From: an uncultured Poribacteria bacterium
GTDB taxonomy: Bacteria > Poribacteria > WGA-4E > PCPOR2b
Direction of reading: 5' to 3'
Assembly (NCBI GenBank): GCA_958296125.1
Contig: OY282444.1
Coordinates: forward strand, 248,001-312,000
Length of the DNA stretch: 64,000 nucleotides
The notes beneath the pieces are model-generated. The model worked only from the letters and a program-made list of their open reading frames with translations, was not told the origin of the DNA and ran no database searches. Each line of letters starts with the position of its first letter. The stretch's first letter is position 1. A program made the translations under genes and the position numbers. Shown piece after piece: positions 2 through 9,243 of this stretch.

Positions 2-256
2 AAAGTGTATGTTGACTTCTCTTTTGAGGGCGAAAAGGTGTTCTGGACATCTCATGTGTTTACTGCTCAGGCAATAGGTGGGCGTTTACAACCTATTGAT
101 ACTAAAGAAATCGCTGACGCGCGCTGGGCAACTTTTGATGAGTTAAATACCAATCTTTTGAAAGCTCTGCAAGAGTCGGAATCTGCCGGTTTGAGATACC
201 GTGCAGAGCTGCAAGCTGCAACTTTACAGCAATATAGGGAGGGTGAGGTGATATGA
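2..256 (+). CDS. NUDIX-like hydrolase, C-terminal part (cut by window edge)
   Basis: The reading frame is open from the first bases of the window, so the start lies outside. The visible 80 or so residues (VFTAQAIGGRLQP then DARWATFDEL) look like the last beta strands and closing helix of a NUDIX fold, where a WATFDEL-type motif is common. The NUDIX box itself (GX5EX7REUXEEXGU) is not in the window, so the catalytic site cannot be checked. The stop codon lies one base before the ATG of the next gene, which suggests a shared transcript with the PorX-like protein. Substrate unknown. Confidence 0.6.
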   Translation, partial: KVYVDFSFEGEKVFWTSHVFTAQAIGGRLQPIDTKEIADARWATFDELNTNLLKALQESESAGLRYRAELQAATLQQYREGEVI

Positions 257-257
257 A

Positions 258-1820
258 ATGCAAGCACAAACAAGGAGGATTTTGTGGATTGATGATGAGA
301 TTAACAGGTTAGAAACACACATTCTATTTTTGGAACAAAAGGGCTATCAGATTACGCCTGCGATAAAGGGTGCTGATGGGTTATCACTGTTGCAGGAAAA
401 AACTTACGACGCGGTCCTAATCAACCATATCATGCCCGATATGGATGGGATGCGTCTGCTTTCGGCAATCAAGAAGCGATACCCCCATTTACCGGTGGTT
501 GTGGTAACCGAAAGCGAGCAACGGGAGATTATGAATGAGGCAATTATCCATCGTGTTGATGACTTTTTAATGAAACCGTTGAATCCAAAACAGATTGCCT
601 CACAACTGGCATTCCTCCTGGAATATGATGCCGTTAAAGAAGATTACACCGCTCAAGAATATGTTATTGACTTTAACAAGCGAAGCGCATTAAAACAGGA
701 GGAAGTCGATTGGAAAACATGGATTGATATTTACACCCAGCTCGCGGAGTGGGATCTGCGCCTAGATGAGCTTGACATTGCCGATAACTTACGTGAAACA
801 CACAGGTTGGAAAAACAGGAATGTAACGCCCTATTTGCCCGCTATGTTGAAGAGAACTATTCTGATTGGTTGGTTGGTCAGGATTCTCCTGTGTTATCGG
901 TAGATTTGCTTTACAAACATGTCATTCCAGAGATACAGGTTGGCAAGCAGGTATTCTTTATGGTGATGGACTGCATGCGGCTGGATCACTGGCTAAAAAT
1001 TAAGCCCCTCCTAGACCCATACTTTCAGATTACCACACACTATCACTACTCAATTTTGCCAACGGCAACGAACTACTCGCGGAACTCGATTTTCAGCGGT
1101 CTGTTTCCGTTGGAGTTTGCACAACGCTATCCCGATTTATGGGTAGAAACTGATGATGAGAACACCAGTGTCAATCGCTATGAAAAAGATTTGATGCGAT
1201 TCCAACTAGAGAGGCACGGTATTCATCTCAAACCCACGCCGCACTATTTTAAGATCTTTGATGGGCGCGGGGAAATGGAGTATCTACAGTGGATTAGCAG
1301 TGTCAAACGCATCAGTTTAGCAGCAGTCGTCGTTGGTTTTATCGATCGCCTGACGCATAAACGCTCTGAAATCGCCTTGCTTAAACAACTCATTCCTGAT
1401 GAGACTGCGTTTCGCACATTTGTGCGAGGCTGGTTTCAGCATTCTGGGTTGTATAAGATTTTGAAGTTGTTGGCAGATCGAGGCGTTACGGTCATTTTAA
1501 CGACGGATCACGGCTCAATCTTGTGTCAGCATGCAGCGAAGGTTTCAGGTGACAGACCTGCAACGAATGGGCTTCGATTCAAGGTCGGCGGTGAGCTGAT
1601 ATGTAATGAAGAAACCGGGTTGAGGATTACCCAGCCAGAACAGTACATGCTGCCCGATGTGGCTTACGAAAAAAATTACGCCCTTGCCAAAGAGGACTAT
1701 TACTTCGTTTATCCAAACCAGTTTCACGACTATAAGCACCAGTTTAACGGAGGATTCCAGCACGGCGGCATCTCAATGGAGGAGATGATTTTACCCTGTG
1801 CTATCCTTGAACCGAAGTAA
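258..1820 (+). CDS. porX: PorX-like response regulator with PglZ domain
   Basis: This 520-residue protein has a receiver domain (residues 6-120) joined to an alkaline-phosphatase-superfamily PglZ domain (about 230-515). This is the architecture and length of PorX, the regulator of the type IX secretion system. The receiver keeps the acidic pair D12-D13, a switch Thr (VVVVTES) and the Lys of FLMKPL, but the phospho-acceptor position before xxMPDMDG is Asn56 (codon aac, 423-425), not Asp. The PglZ part shows MDCMRLD, PTATNYSRNS, TTDHGS and QHGGISMEEM, the expected metal-site segments. A purine-rich GGGAGGGTGAGG stretch precedes the ATG, which follows the upstream stop by one base. PorX in Bacteroidetes pairs with the kinase PorY; no kinase is visible here. 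Family assignment is strong; the T9SS role is inferred. Confidence 0.85.
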   Translation: MQAQTRRILWIDDEINRLETHILFLEQKGYQITPAIKGADGLSLLQEKTYDAVLINHIMPDMDGMRLLSAIKKRYPHLPVVVVTESEQREIMNEAIIHRVDDFLMKPLNPKQIASQLAFLLEYDAVKEDYTAQEYVIDFNKRSALKQEEVDWKTWIDIYTQLAEWDLRLDELDIADNLRETHRLEKQECNALFARYVEENYSDWLVGQDSPVLSVDLLYKHVIPEIQVGKQVFFMVMDCMRLDHWLKIKPLLDPYFQITTHYHYSILPTATNYSRNSIFSGLFPLEFAQRYPDLWVETDDENTSVNRYEKDLMRFQLERHGIHLKPTPHYFKIFDGRGEMEYLQWISSVKRISLAAVVVGFIDRLTHKRSEIALLKQLIPDETAFRTFVRGWFQHSGLYKILKLLADRGVTVILTTDHGSILCQHAAKVSGDRPATNGLRFKVGGELICNEETGLRITQPEQYMLPDVAYEKNYALAKEDYYFVYPNQFHDYKHQFNGGFQHGGISMEEMILPCAILEPK

Positions 1821-1973: not shown

Positions 1974-3833
1974 ATGATAAGCAAATCAGTTGTTCGCCCT
2001 CACTTTTTGTTATGCCTTATCTGTGCACTATACATCGGGACACCTACTGCCTTATGGGGACAGTTATCACGTTTCGGATTGCCTAAGCAAAATGCCGAGC
2101 CAGCCGAGATTGTCACAGCGCATGGGGTCTTGTCGGTAAATCAAGTGCAGCCCGGTAGCACATTCCAGATGGCTATCGTGATGCAGTTTGCACCCAACTG
2201 GCACGCAAACGCCAATCCCACTAGGGAAGGCTTGATTCCCACGCAAGTTATCCTTCCTGACCACACCGATCTGGTATTCGGCGAAGTGGTGTATCCCCAG
2301 GCAGATGTCCTCGAAATTGCCTCACTGGGGGGAGAAGTCCCTGTGTATCATGATGAAGCCGTGATCGGGTTTCAAACGACATTACTGGACTCAGCACCGT
2401 TAGGTCAAACAACGCTTCCCTTCCAACTAACATACCAAGCGTGTAACGACGAACAGTGTTTGTTGCCGAAAACAATTGATGTCGATGTTGCGATTGAGGT
2501 TGTTGGACTGGATCAACCGATTCAACCTATAAACGATGCGATCTTTGCAAACCTTCAACTCGGTTCCCCTCCTGATACCCCCTCTGAGACCGCGACAAGC
2601 GAAAGTGGAAAGTTTTCCCAAGCACTATCCAAAGGTTACTTTTGGGCATTTCTCTTCGTCTTTGTGGGCGGCATCTTAACCAGTTTCACGCCGTGCGTTT
2701 ACCCGTTAATCCCGATAACCGTTTCCGTTTTTGGGGCGGGTGAATCCGTAGGTCGTCTGCGATCCTTTCTCTTATCCGTTACTTATGTTATGGGCATTGC
2801 GCTCACATACTCGATTTTGGGCGTTGTTGTCGCATCAACGGGAGCGGTCTTTGGACAGATAATGGCAGATCCACGGGTGATGCTCCCGGTCTGTGGAATC
2901 CTTGTCGCGCTCGGACTGTCTATGCTCGGTGTCTTTGAGCTTCGCGTACCTTACGCCGTGCAGAATAGACTCAACAGCGTCGGCGGTGCCGGGGTTGCCG
3001 GTGCCTTTGCGATGGGAACTGTTGCAGGCATCATCGCCGCACCTTGCACAGGGCCGGCTTTGGGTGCAGTGCTTTCTTACGTCGCTACCACAGAGAGCGT
3101 TTTCCTCGGATTCTGGCTGCTGCTAACTTATGCCCTCGGTATGGGATTGCTATTTATCGTCATCGGTACGTTTTCGGGTGCCATCGCCGCCCTCCCGAGA
3201 TCTGGGGGTTGGATGTATATTTTGGAAAATATATTCGGTGTCGCTATCATCACGGTGGCTTTGTACTTCCTCAAAGAGGTCATCTCACCATTGCACACTT
3301 TCCTCCAGAATTCTGCGGGCTTTTTTGCAATCGCAGGTGTATTTGTGCTAGCCGGTGTTGCCCTCGGTAAATTCTCCCAGCGATTCAGAGACCTGCCCCG
3401 TCCGATGCAACTCCGTAAAACAGTTGGCGTTTTATTGGCAGTTGCTGGACTTTATATGTTCGTCGGAGGGCTTACAAAGACAGAAAGTGCCCTCGTCTGG
3501 ATGGCTGATGAAGCCCAAGGGTTGGAGGTTGGACGAAGGGAGCGCAAACCCGTCATGCTCGATTTCTACGCTACATGGTGCGCTGCTTGCAACGAGCTAG
3601 AGCATACCTATTCTGACCCGGCAGTTAAATCAAAGTTGTCAAAATTTGTGAACGTTAAGTTGGATTTTACTCGAAATTCGGCTGAAGTCGAACGACTGAA
3701 GCAAAAATATGGTATTGTTGGCTTGCCTGTGGTGATTTTCTTTGATTCTGATGGGCATCAGTTGACGGACAAAAGACTTGAAAAGTTTGTTGAACCGGAG
3801 GAGCTTTTGAGGCTCTTGGCGGGAATTAATTGA
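1974..3833 (+). CDS. dsbD: Thiol:disulfide interchange protein DsbD
   Basis: DsbD moves reducing electrons from cytoplasmic thioredoxin across the inner membrane to periplasmic thiol proteins. All three modules are present in the 619 residues. A signal peptide comes first (hydrophobic stretch about residues 10-29), then an N-terminal immunoglobulin-like domain with the redox pair in QACNDEQC. A multi-helix domain (about 220-500) carries the two membrane cysteines in FTPCVYP and AAPCTGP. A C-terminal thioredoxin domain has CAAC (C536, C539). The ATG at 1974 has only a weak GGGA upstream. The TPR gene follows after 34 bases and may be cotranscribed. Confidence 0.93.
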   Translation: MISKSVVRPHFLLCLICALYIGTPTALWGQLSRFGLPKQNAEPAEIVTAHGVLSVNQVQPGSTFQMAIVMQFAPNWHANANPTREGLIPTQVILPDHTDLVFGEVVYPQADVLEIASLGGEVPVYHDEAVIGFQTTLLDSAPLGQTTLPFQLTYQACNDEQCLLPKTIDVDVAIEVVGLDQPIQPINDAIFANLQLGSPPDTPSETATSESGKFSQALSKGYFWAFLFVFVGGILTSFTPCVYPLIPITVSVFGAGESVGRLRSFLLSVTYVMGIALTYSILGVVVASTGAVFGQIMADPRVMLPVCGILVALGLSMLGVFELRVPYAVQNRLNSVGGAGVAGAFAMGTVAGIIAAPCTGPALGAVLSYVATTESVFLGFWLLLTYALGMGLLFIVIGTFSGAIAALPRSGGWMYILENIFGVAIITVALYFLKEVISPLHTFLQNSAGFFAIAGVFVLAGVALGKFSQRFRDLPRPMQLRKTVGVLLAVAGLYMFVGGLTKTESALVWMADEAQGLEVGRRERKPVMLDFYATWCAACNELEHTYSDPAVKSKLSKFVNVKLDFTRNSAEVERLKQKYGIVGLPVVIFFDSDGHQLTDKRLEKFVEPEELLRLLAGIN

Positions 3834-3867: not shown

Positions 3868-4908
3868 ATGCGTAAATGGTTGCCCTACTTTGAAGCAGTC
3901 ATGCTGGCTATCCTCATTGTCCTGATAGTTCTGAACACAAAAAGAGGGACAACAGAAGCGGATTCACCTTCCGCATCACAGGTGGATGCATTCATAGAAC
4001 AGGGAGATAATTATTTTGCAAAGCAAGATTTGGCAAAAGCCCTATTTGCATATTGGGAAGGTATTCAGGCGATTGAGGCTGACATCCACAACGTCAGCCA
4101 TGCGTCACGGCTGCACGCCCATCTCCGCGTTTCGGAAATTTATTTTCACAGCAACTGGGTGGCAGATGCGGAAATCCATCTGGATCGCGCTGCGGTCATC
4201 AATCCCAACCACCCGGACATCCATCTGCTACGTGGAAAGCTGCTGCGTGACACAGGCGAACGGGCACAAGCTGTCCAAGAGTTCCTTGCCGTAATCGCTA
4301 AAGACCCGACCTATGCGGAAGCGCACTATCTGTTAGGCACGCTGTATCAATCAACGCAACAGTTTGAGGAAGCACAGGCTCACTACGAGAAGGCGATTGA
4401 AAACGACCCCGACTTAATTGATGTCCCCTTTGAGGCGGTGCCAATCGGTCTGCAAGCCCGATTGCAACTTTCGCGCACCTACCGCAATATCCTTCAAAAG
4501 TACCGGTTCATTGACCGAGCACTCACCGCTGAGGAACAGGCACAGCTTGTCGGATTGGAAGATAAAGGACTTGAACTCCTTGATGAGGTTGTCGCACACG
4601 CGCCAGGCTTCACAGAAGCGAAACAGGAACTTATCGGATTGCTCCATGCCCGCGCGGCTACGCTCCGGCGCGGCGGGGAGGAACGCGCTTATGATGATGC
4701 GTTGGATGTGTATCAGAAAATCGTCACGCTAGACCCAACTGAGATTGACGCGTATCTGTGGATAGGACAAATCTACAATTCATTTTTGCAAGACCCGGAA
4801 TCCGCACTCGAAGCGTATAGAAAAGCTTACGCGCTTGAGCCGGACTCAATGACCCTGACAGAAATCAAGAATCTCGAAAGGGATTTGGAGGAGATGCAAA
4901 GCGAATAG
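3868..4908 (+). CDS. Membrane-anchored TPR-repeat protein
   Basis: This 346-residue protein starts with a single hydrophobic helix (about residues 8-24, AVMLAILIVLIVLNT) followed by tetratricopeptide repeats. Repeat-like helices are clearest at about residues 45-75, 110-180 (ending in AEAHYLLGTLYQSTQQFEEA) and 255-340. The ATG has AGGAAG about eight bases upstream. TPR domains bind partner proteins, and an N-terminal anchor suggests the repeats face the periplasm. It follows dsbD closely, so a role in envelope protein maturation is possible, but no specific partner is visible. Confidence 0.75.
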   Translation: MRKWLPYFEAVMLAILIVLIVLNTKRGTTEADSPSASQVDAFIEQGDNYFAKQDLAKALFAYWEGIQAIEADIHNVSHASRLHAHLRVSEIYFHSNWVADAEIHLDRAAVINPNHPDIHLLRGKLLRDTGERAQAVQEFLAVIAKDPTYAEAHYLLGTLYQSTQQFEEAQAHYEKAIENDPDLIDVPFEAVPIGLQARLQLSRTYRNILQKYRFIDRALTAEEQAQLVGLEDKGLELLDEVVAHAPGFTEAKQELIGLLHARAATLRRGGEERAYDDALDVYQKIVTLDPTEIDAYLWIGQIYNSFLQDPESALEAYRKAYALEPDSMTLTEIKNLERDLEEMQSE

Positions 4909-6258: not shown

Positions 6259-9243
6259 TTAACCCTTGATCACACCGATCGGACGTAACCGGGCCACCCG
6301 CTGTGAGAGCCCCGCTGCATCAACAACCTTGACAACTTCATCCACATCTTTGTAGGCTTCGGGCACTTCCTCGTGGAGGGTGCGTCGCCCTTCGGCACGG
6401 ACGAAGATTCCTTGCTTTTCAAGGTCTCGTTGAATGCTCCGTCCTTTTGTGACCTGCATCGCTTTTCGACGCGAGAGCATTCTGCCGGCACCATGGCACG
6501 TTGTTCCCCACGTCTGCTCCATTGCTGACGGGCTGCCGACCAACACATACGAAGCGGTTCCCATATCGCCGGGAATCAGAACCGGCTGCCCGACCTTCTG
6601 ATATTTGTCGGGAATCTCAGGATGCCCTGCCGGAAACGCTCGCGTCGCACCTTTGCGGTGCACGAACAGTTCACGTTCAACCCCATCAACAAGGTGCTTC
6701 TCAAACTTGCCGATGTTATGCGCGACATCATAGACCAGTTCTAAGCCGAGTTCATCAACTCCAGTCTCGAAGAAATCCATGAACGTCTGACGCACCCAGT
6801 GCATGATACATTGGCGATTATTCCATGCGTAGTTTGCGCCACACGCCATCGCCGTGATATAGTCCTGTCCTTCCTTTGAATGAATCGGGGCAGCGGCGAG
6901 TTGGCGGTCGGGCAGATTCATTCCATACTTCTTCGCAACTTTGACCCACGTTTTGACATGCTCATCGCAGACTTGATAGCCGAAACCGCGTGAACCACTA
7001 TGAATCATCACACAAATCTGCCCCTCCGTCAACCCCATCACTTCGGCGGCTTCCCGATACAGAATTCGATCTACGACTTGGACCTCTAGGAAATGATTGC
7101 CAGAACCGAGCGTGCCGAGCTGATTTTTTCCACGTTCCAAGGCACGTTTGCTGACAGCATCCGCATTGGCAAGGGACAGAAAACCGTTTGCCTCCGTAAA
7201 TTGAAGGTCTTCGAGAAAACCGTATTCGCGCTCGACCGCCCAACGCGCTCCCTGCTCGACCATCTGCTTCTCTTCTTGCGGATTCAACCGAATCTTGCCA
7301 CTCGATCCAACACCACAGGGAATATTTTCAAATAGCTTCGCAACGAGTCGCTTAGTTTTGCCTGCTAATTGTTTAACATCCAAATTGGTCCGAACTAATC
7401 GCACACCACAGTTAGAAACAACGAAACCGTTTGCAATGAAATTGTGGTCTGGATGCTCAACCGTAAAGTCGTAAACGTAATCGTCAAACTCAAGTAGGGT
7501 AATTGATTCAATACGATCCCAAACCATACCACTTTTGCTTATATTCTGCGTCGATTCTTCAATATACTCCTCAAAAGTTGGGAAAGCTTGGCTGACTCGT
7601 GGCTTCGCCTGGCACCCTTCATAGACGGACCTTTCAACAAAACGCTCGTTAATGTATTCAGACTCGATCTTGTTGGTAATTTCAGAGATCGACATCCCAT
7701 CGACGTGCATTGCAACGGCAATCTCTGCAGCATTTTCTCGCCCTTCAATCAATCGTTGCTTCAGCTTGATATACTGTAACGCAACATTTGCGAGCGTCTT
7801 ACGTTCTGCGTTGTATTCAAACCCAATCTGTCCCCACAGCTTAATCAGGTTCTCATTCGTCCCCGATATGACCAATCGCAATCGGTAGGAAGTGGATCCA
7901 TCCGCATTCGTCTGTTCTTTTCGCTGCCCAATCTTCTTAATCTGCACACCGAAATCCGCTAAAAGATCGCCAATGTCTTGCAGGTAAGAAACGCCGCTAT
8001 GGACATAACCTTCCCTTTTACTCACCGACATCTTAGGAGCGGAGATAGTGTAGGGATGTCCTGTCACTGTGCTTAGTGATTCCAATTCAGTCCCGAATAG
8101 CGCAGCGAGAAACAGGCGTTTCTGCCATAACGGTGCACCCTTAATCCACGGGGGCACACGGTAGTCCTGAGCAGCTTTCTTACCGTGAGGCGCGCCAAGC
8201 GCAATAAGCAACGTTGCGAATGCAGTGCTACTCACATTGAAACTGACCTCTTCGCGGGAGAATTGATATGTATCATCAGTTGTTGTAAGCTGATGGACTC
8301 GCTCGCGACGGTGCAATTTTGATGATGTAAACCCAAGGTGCGAAATATCTGCTCTGATCTCCTCAAGATCTTCTGCGTTGCCGTGGAAGGAAATTTGACC
8401 TTTTCCATCGCCGTTGACACAGTAGATACTACCATCACCCATCACGAACCCCAGGACTTTTAACAGGTATGGCAAGGCGGGTGAGTCATATTTCAACGGT
8501 AACAGATCGCGCTGCTTGAGATGCTTGATGACCTGTCCCTGTCGATTGCCAGAGTGACTATCGCCGAGTTGATTGAGGGTGTGTTCAATCTGTGCTTGAT
8601 CGACGATAATCGCATCCGATGGTTCTTCATAAGGGACACCTTGAAATGGTGATAACGCGACCTTATCCCCAATCTTGAGCGATTGCAGTTCGGTCATACC
8701 CTGTGGTGTCCAGAAGGGGTGATCGGCTGTCGCCTTGATGGTATCACCGCCTTCGGTTTTTAGGCAATATACCGGCTGGGCCGGACGGAGTTTCAGGTAA
8801 TGTCGCACAGAAGTTTGGGTTTCAACGCTATTGTGAAAATCCTGACAACGTAACACAGCAGTTTCCCAATTTGAACCCATTTTTCCGATTGGTATCGTGT
8901 AACCGTGTTGGTGCAGTATCTCCGCGTCAGCTGTCAAGCAGTTGAGATCATATCCAATCCCGCCGGGGGACACAACGCCATCTGCCGCTGGATCGGTCGC
9001 TGCGACACCGCCAATCACGAAGCCATAGCCCCAATGTAGGTCGGGCATCGCAAGCGAATACTTTACAATCCCCGGCAGATGTGCTACATTGGCAACCTGC
9101 TGCAAAGCCTCTTCGCTCTTGGCCTGTTCAAGTAATTTTTCATTCGCGTAGATAATTCCATCAACGCGCATGCCCCCCATATAACTTTTGGGGATGCGCC
9201 ACCTATATTCATCAATTTTTTGTAAAGGTATTGCTGTTGCCAT
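6259..9243 (-). CDS. rtcB: RtcB RNA ligase precursor containing an intein
   Basis: RtcB joins 2',3'-cyclic-phosphate or 3'-phosphate RNA ends to 5'-OH ends using GTP and Mn2+, in tRNA splicing and RNA repair. The ORF is 994 residues, but the exteins (1-101 and 612-994) total 484, the normal RtcB length. They carry PDLHWGYGF, SPGGIGYDLN, GTLGSGNHF, HSGSRG and HGAGR near the C-terminus, where the guanylylated His lies. The intein interrupts at the Mn-binding Cys: GGIGYDLN | intein | CGVRLVRTNLD. The start has AGGAG spaced 9 bases from ATG. Upstream on the same strand are an unknown membrane protein and trpC. Confidence 0.95.
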   Translation of the reverse strand: MATAIPLQKIDEYRWRIPKSYMGGMRVDGIIYANEKLLEQAKSEEALQQVANVAHLPGIVKYSLAMPDLHWGYGFVIGGVAATDPAADGVVSPGGIGYDLNCLTADAEILHQHGYTIPIGKMGSNWETAVLRCQDFHNSVETQTSVRHYLKLRPAQPVYCLKTEGGDTIKATADHPFWTPQGMTELQSLKIGDKVALSPFQGVPYEEPSDAIIVDQAQIEHTLNQLGDSHSGNRQGQVIKHLKQRDLLPLKYDSPALPYLLKVLGFVMGDGSIYCVNGDGKGQISFHGNAEDLEEIRADISHLGFTSSKLHRRERVHQLTTTDDTYQFSREEVSFNVSSTAFATLLIALGAPHGKKAAQDYRVPPWIKGAPLWQKRLFLAALFGTELESLSTVTGHPYTISAPKMSVSKREGYVHSGVSYLQDIGDLLADFGVQIKKIGQRKEQTNADGSTSYRLRLVISGTNENLIKLWGQIGFEYNAERKTLANVALQYIKLKQRLIEGRENAAEIAVAMHVDGMSISEITNKIESEYINERFVERSVYEGCQAKPRVSQAFPTFEEYIEESTQNISKSGMVWDRIESITLLEFDDYVYDFTVEHPDHNFIANGFVVSNCGVRLVRTNLDVKQLAGKTKRLVAKLFENIPCGVGSSGKIRLNPQEEKQMVEQGARWAVEREYGFLEDLQFTEANGFLSLANADAVSKRALERGKNQLGTLGSGNHFLEVQVVDRILYREAAEVMGLTEGQICVMIHSGSRGFGYQVCDEHVKTWVKVAKKYGMNLPDRQLAAAPIHSKEGQDYITAMACGANYAWNNRQCIMHWVRQTFMDFFETGVDELGLELVYDVAHNIGKFEKHLVDGVERELFVHRKGATRAFPAGHPEIPDKYQKVGQPVLIPGDMGTASYVLVGSPSAMEQTWGTTCHGAGRMLSRRKAMQVTKGRSIQRDLEKQGIFVRAEGRRTLHEEVPEAYKDVDEVVKVVDAAGLSQRVARLRPIGVIKG
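7411..8940 (-). other. Intein within RtcB (510 residues, with LAGLIDADG endonuclease)
   Basis: Precursor residues 102-611 form a self-splicing intein. It begins with Cys1 (CLTADAEIL), has the block-B TxxH motif (ATADHPFW), and ends ...NFIANGFVVSN just before extein Cys612. Two LAGLIDADG-like helices are visible in the middle: LLKVLGFVMGDGSI and RLFLAALFGTELESL. A dodecapeptide homing endonuclease is therefore likely present, and possibly active. The penultimate residue is Ser rather than the usual His. The insertion point is the active-site Cys, the same site as the archaeal RtcB intein, so splicing is required for ligase activity. Confidence 0.93.

Follow-up and report, generated by a model that had tools for sequence, protein, structure and literature searches.

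A PorX-family protein from Candidatus Poribacteria, which we call PorX-B, has asparagine (Asn56) at the position that is phosphorylated in PorX. The same genome encodes a second PorX, PorX-A, which is 49% identical to PorX-B and has aspartate at the acceptor position. Because Asn56 replaces the phosphorylatable aspartate that PorX-A has, PorX-B is a paralog within the PorX family and not a canonical phospho-switched PorX. We consider it probable that PorX-B is a phosphorylation-independent metallophosphodiesterase whose pseudo-receiver acts as a structural or protein-interaction module.

A PorX homolog with asparagine at the phospho-acceptor site

The window is a stretch of 64,000 nucleotides from a single-contig genome (5.16 Mb) of Candidatus Poribacteria; its features are listed in Table 1. 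In PorX-B, Pfam identifies Response_reg at residues 8–116 (E = 7.7e-22) and PglZ at residues 230–425 (E = 1e-17). The protein thus passes as a receiver by PF00072, yet it lacks the acceptor aspartate. The named relatives of PorX-B, at 90–91% identity, are from Candidatus Poribacteria genomes. Using phmmer, we found that its closest solved relative is PorX from P. gingivalis (7pv7, E = 2e-116); PorX from F. johnsoniae (8ted/8p6f) matches with E of about 1e-108.

The original prediction was that this PorX-like regulator has asparagine at the phospho-acceptor position (codon 423–425, aac) and that it retains the acidic pair, the switch threonine, and the conserved lysine. Both parts are borne out by the alignment and by a structural model. 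The phmmer alignment has no gaps across the receiver, and it places Asn56 opposite Asp58 of P. gingivalis PorX and Asp54 of F. johnsoniae PorX. D12, D13, T84, F103, and K106 correspond to D10, D11, T82, Y101, and K104 of F. johnsoniae PorX, so the sole change among these five residues is from tyrosine to phenylalanine (Y101 to F103). P107 is also kept. Using 28 relatives, we obtained an AlphaFold2 model with a mean pLDDT of 81.7. It has the PorX fold over its full length (TM 0.88 to 7pvk), and β-strand 3 (residues 52–56) ends at residue 56, which is the acceptor position. The ungapped alignment and the model also rule out another aspartate at the acceptor position: D61 aligns with the glycine of MPG in PorX-A, and D63 aligns with the aspartate of DG.

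Table 1. Features of porX-B and its neighbors, in window coordinates. FJ, F. johnsoniae PorX; PG, P. gingivalis PorX.
Feature	Position	Strand	Evidence or comment
NUDIX hydrolase gene, 3' part; stop 1 bp before porX-B start	2..256	+	upstream remainder at L264 9684-10256
porX-B: receiver, helical bundle, PglZ/alkaline-phosphatase-superfamily protein, 520 aa	258..1820	+	ORF, Pfam, phmmer, model
Pseudo-receiver domain, residues 6-118	273..611	+	Pfam PF00072 residues 8-116; model
Acidic pair D12-D13, kept in window genus	291..296	+	
Asn56 (aac), phospho-acceptor position	423..425	+	
Switch Thr84 (FJ T82)	507..509	+	
Switch aromatic Phe103 (FJ Y101)	564..566	+	
Conserved Lys106 (FJ K104)	573..575	+	
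PglZ/alkaline-phosphatase-superfamily domain, residues 210-520	885..1817	+	PF08665; model
Putative metal ligand D238 (FJ D237)	969..971	+	110/110 conserved
Putative catalytic Thr271 (PG T272; FJ T271)	1068..1070	+	110/110 conserved
Putative metal ligands D363, H367 (FJ D360, H364)	1344..1358	+	110/110 conserved
Putative metal ligands D417-H418 (FJ D414, H415)	1506..1511	+	110/110 conserved
Putative metal ligand H502 (FJ H499)	1761..1763	+	110/110 conserved
DsbD-like thiol:disulfide interchange gene, conserved porX-B neighbor	1974..3833	+	
TPR protein gene, conserved neighbor	3868..4908	+	

PorX-A and PorX-B are ancient paralogs

We collected 110 full-length PorX proteins from 59 genomes of the same order, including the window genome (the window gene is counted twice among the 110 rows, as L001 and L031). 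At the acceptor position, 59 of these have Asp, 42 have Asn, 8 have Ser, and 1 has Cys. We built a tree from residues 128–518 only, which excludes the receiver columns. This tree still separates PorX-A from PorX-B (the branch of the B clade is labeled 100*), which shows that the two types are paralogs. The B clade takes in the PorX of G070, which belongs to another family of the class. The G070 protein branches early and has an intact DDD pocket. There is an in-frame TGA in its PglZ part (L169 / L244), due to either an assembly error or a pseudogene.

Nearly all genomes of the order carry both copies, but PorX-B is absent from some genomes with PorX-A, such as G006 and family f4. The pattern D-D-D-T-F-K-P is found in every PorX-A and in every PorX that we checked from outgroups within the phylum.

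Loss of the receiver pocket

All 53 of the PorX-B proteins from the order lack one or both of the Mg2+-binding acids D13 and D56, while all 56 PorX-A proteins keep both. The losses took different routes: either Asn, Ser, or Cys at the acceptor position, or Ser or Asn at the second aspartate of the acidic pair. All six genomes of the window genus have D13 and N56, always with the codon AAC, and residue 56 is the only part of the canonical pocket that is lost. In the nearest other genus, a sister genus, the codon is AGT (Ser). PorX-B has D13 and S56 in G007, S13 and D56 in G008 and G009, and N13 and D56 in G012. Most of the 43 proteins from family f3 have N, S, C, T, or G at position 13 and N, S, or C at position 56, and Lys106 is absent. 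Since the substitution recurs across relatives, it is not an oddity of one genome.

In aspartate-less receivers at large, the commonest replacement is glutamate (PMC4395418), which is a phosphomimic. We can rule out this route for PorX-B: none of the 53 proteins has Glu at position 56, where Asp is replaced by N, S, or C only. In the published definition of pseudo-receivers, DD2 binds the metal directly, and the D, T, and K residues contact the phosphoryl group (PMC12632262). Judging by their sequences, the PorX-B receivers of this order are pseudo-receivers under that definition.

Both the gene tree and a tree of the five-gene operon require two changes between Asp and non-Asp within PorX-B. 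A single-loss clade is not rejected (AU test, p = 0.156 and 0.185). We favor two losses over one because the NUDIX gene is found only in f1 and f2 operons and because f1 and f2 group together, apart from f3, in the PorX-A tree.

Distinct gene neighborhoods

In every PorX-A locus that we inspected, a histidine kinase gene is directly upstream (HK-porXA-RNase E/G), and in the window genome the kinase gene overlaps the start of porX-A. An RNase E/G gene is downstream of PorX-A wherever the contig allows, except that the phylum outgroup G060 has no RNase match; the locus from another phylum outgroup, G059, is cut too short to judge. At L265 7924-13256 (minus strand), porX-A lies between a kinase gene that overlaps its start and the RNase E/G gene, an arrangement that recurs across the phylum. 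The placement of a phosphodiesterase that presumably acts on oligonucleotides (PorX-A) next to an endoribonuclease gene is suggestive.

PorX-B genes are found in another cluster, glcD-glcE-(nudix)-porXB-dsbD-TPR. PorX-B follows GlcE, and GlcD is further upstream in most loci. The NUDIX gene lies between glcE and porX-B in families f1 and f2 only. DsbD and TPR genes follow in nearly all loci, with no DsbD match in G008 and G070. The histidine kinase of the window genome (HisKA + HATPase_c) has no match in the flanks of PorX-B loci, up to 5 kb on each side. The two contexts are mutually exclusive, as counted by loci, which are not independent events; many of the loci come from genomes that occur twice in the collection, under different names. 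Because G070 PorX-B has no kinase gene but does have an intact DDD pocket, the kinase linkage was probably lost before the phospho-site.

The window also contains, at 6259-9243 on the minus strand, a gene for RtcB RNA ligase with an intein (Pfam Intein_splicing, residues 109–611 of 994).

A conserved active site and a relaxed receiver

The two-zinc site and catalytic threonine of F. johnsoniae PorX comprise D237, T271, D360, H364, D414, H415, and H499 (PMC10951265, PMC11320123). The corresponding residues of PorX-B (D238, T271, D363, H367, D417, H418, and H502) are intact in all 110 PorX proteins. The column of the catalytic threonine can be confirmed from 7pvk, a T272A mutant, which shows the change exactly at T271.

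Receiver dN/dS in the window genus is 0.088 for PorX-B and 0.021 for PorX-A; for the PglZ domain, the values are 0.051 and 0.038. All four are plain averages over pairs, given without confidence intervals. Across 41 genomes from family f3, the ratio of receiver divergence to PglZ divergence is 2.20 for PorX-B versus 1.03 for PorX-A. Given the receiver's dN/dS in B as compared to A, constraint on the PorX-B receiver is relaxed, and purifying selection clearly continues.

Type IX secretion

The window genome has a match to SprA_N (E = 7.7e-8) in a 2174-aa reading frame and a match to PorV (E = 4e-10). The profiles GldL_N and GldM_4th had no match in this genome, nor in any control genome. Sorting tails of the T9SS type (TIGR04183) occur at 48 places in the genome, in open frames that reach about 3,200 aa. 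Many proteins thus carry these tails, even though the phylum is outside the Bacteroidota.

The role of PorX-B

It was also predicted either that the receiver works without phosphorylation (always on, or through dimerization only) or that control has moved to the PglZ domain. As applied to PorX-B, a receiver that does not depend on Asp phosphorylation, with control placed elsewhere, fits with the order-wide loss of pocket chemistry, the invariant PglZ site, and the lack of a linked kinase. It does not hold for the organism, which retains canonical control through PorX-A, with its aspartate and linked histidine kinase.

The idea that phosphorylation governs PorX, on which the original prediction also drew, is too strong as a description of the whole. 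Phosphorylation makes little difference to the phosphodiesterase activity of F. johnsoniae PorX (PMC10951265), and the D54A mutant of this protein still dimerizes with zinc (PMC11320123). In P. gingivalis, the D58A mutant keeps 50–61% of gingipain activity, while a receiver-interface mutant has 1–2% (PMC11320123); therefore, the surface of the receiver matters more than its phosphorylation. These observations make a phosphorylation-independent PorX plausible by analogy. The behavior of D54A also makes metal control a concrete candidate for PorX-B.

We propose that a duplication of PorX took place early on in one class of Poribacteria, and that PorX-A stayed beside its histidine kinase with a complete phosphotransfer site. 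PorX-B lies, free of a kinase, in a metabolic/redox gene cluster, and its Mg2+/phosphoryl pocket has been dismantled, by Asn56 in the window genus. PorX-B would still be a working metallophosphodiesterase, with oligonucleotide-type substrates (assumed from PorX). Its receiver would not be switchable by Asp phosphorylation and may be a fixed dimerization or docking module. We infer that PorX-B is controlled by metal binding or by heterodimerization with PorX-A: its activity might depend on how far the PglZ site is filled with metal, on expression of the operon, or on heterodimers with phosphorylated PorX-A. It is possible that PorX-B is a dedicated signaling phosphodiesterase, independent of phosphorylation and tuned by metal or redox state via the glycolate-oxidase/DsbD operon, which acts in parallel to or heterodimerizes with the kinase-controlled PorX-A. 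This would be a two-tier PorX system, and we suggest it tentatively.

The main rival is that PorX-B chiefly modulates PorX-A, with the pseudo-receiver forming heterodimers or competing for PorX-A's kinase or its partners. WhiI and BldM are a precedent (PMC12632262). This would account for the fact that almost every genome in the order has both copies, and for the retention and constraint of the PorX-B receiver. But A and B are in separate, unlinked operons, PorX-B is missing from G006 and family f4 where A is kept, and the universally intact PglZ site suggests an enzymatic role too. We doubt that modulation is its chief role, although heterodimers are compatible with a constitutive or metal-set phosphodiesterase.

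It is also quite unlikely that PorX-B is simply decaying, with a receiver that drifts without function. The B receiver does evolve faster than the A receiver, and the G070 gene has an in-frame TGA, but the receiver's dN/dS is 0.088 in the window genus, the PglZ residues are invariant, and 53 copies of the gene persist within a conserved operon.

Another potential explanation is that Asn56 deamidates to Asp after synthesis, which would make the receiver phosphorylatable after all. Reversion or deamidation of Asn at this position has been raised for another receiver (PMC4395418), and the window genus keeps all of the other pocket residues, so residual phosphorylation is possible in principle. 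Deamidation is unlikely to be the point because relatives have Ser and Cys at the same site. Serine in the sister genus, along with Asn, Ser, or Cys and the loss of D13 and K106 in f3, indicates a trend away from phosphorylation, and there is no linked kinase. We consider this explanation very improbable. Finally, with AAC in six genomes and serine in the sister genus, there is almost no chance that the codon is a sequencing or assembly error.

The Poribacteria offer a natural experiment. A sponge-associated bacterium hosts both versions of PorX: paired paralogs in each cell, one with a phospho-switch and kinase and one with neither, and both with intact catalytic-site residues. The pair bears on the unsettled question of how much phosphorylation, zinc, and dimerization each contribute to the control of PorX. 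Intermediate states, in which the aspartate remains but the metal-binding acid is gone, the aspartate is gone but the acidic pair remains, or the whole pocket is rebuilt, trace how a receiver escapes from phosphorelay control once its linkage to a kinase has been lost.

Comparison with known systems

Like PorX-B, the aspartate-less receivers (RitR with Asn53, WhiI, ChxR, HP1043, and others) have a receiver fold in which the acceptor aspartate is replaced. Asn, at 16%, ranks among the most frequent substitutes (PMC4395418). Their effectors bind DNA, whereas the effector of PorX-B is an enzyme of the PglZ/alkaline-phosphatase superfamily, so PorX-B adds an enzyme effector to the catalog of pseudo-receivers. 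PMC4395418 makes no mention of PglZ, and PMC12632262 mentions neither PglZ nor PorX. Our literature search found no paper that combines "PorX" and "pseudo-receiver."

PorX-B shares its domain superfamily with the PglZ of BREX systems. To our knowledge, BREX PglZ has no receiver. The neighbors of PorX-B also differ from those of BREX: they are glcD/E, NUDIX, DsbD, and TPR genes.

The closest known system is PorX itself, the response regulator of the T9SS (7pv7/7pvk from P. gingivalis and 8ted/8p6f from F. johnsoniae). PorX and PorX-B have the same three-domain architecture over about 520 aa, they are similar in sequence and fold (the E value and TM score are given above), and all of the PglZ metal ligands and the catalytic threonine are conserved. 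Unlike PorX, the window's PorX-B has asparagine instead of the phosphorylated aspartate, is accompanied by a second PorX with aspartate in the same genome, and is encoded in a glcD/E-nudix-dsbD context in a host from outside the Bacteroidota.
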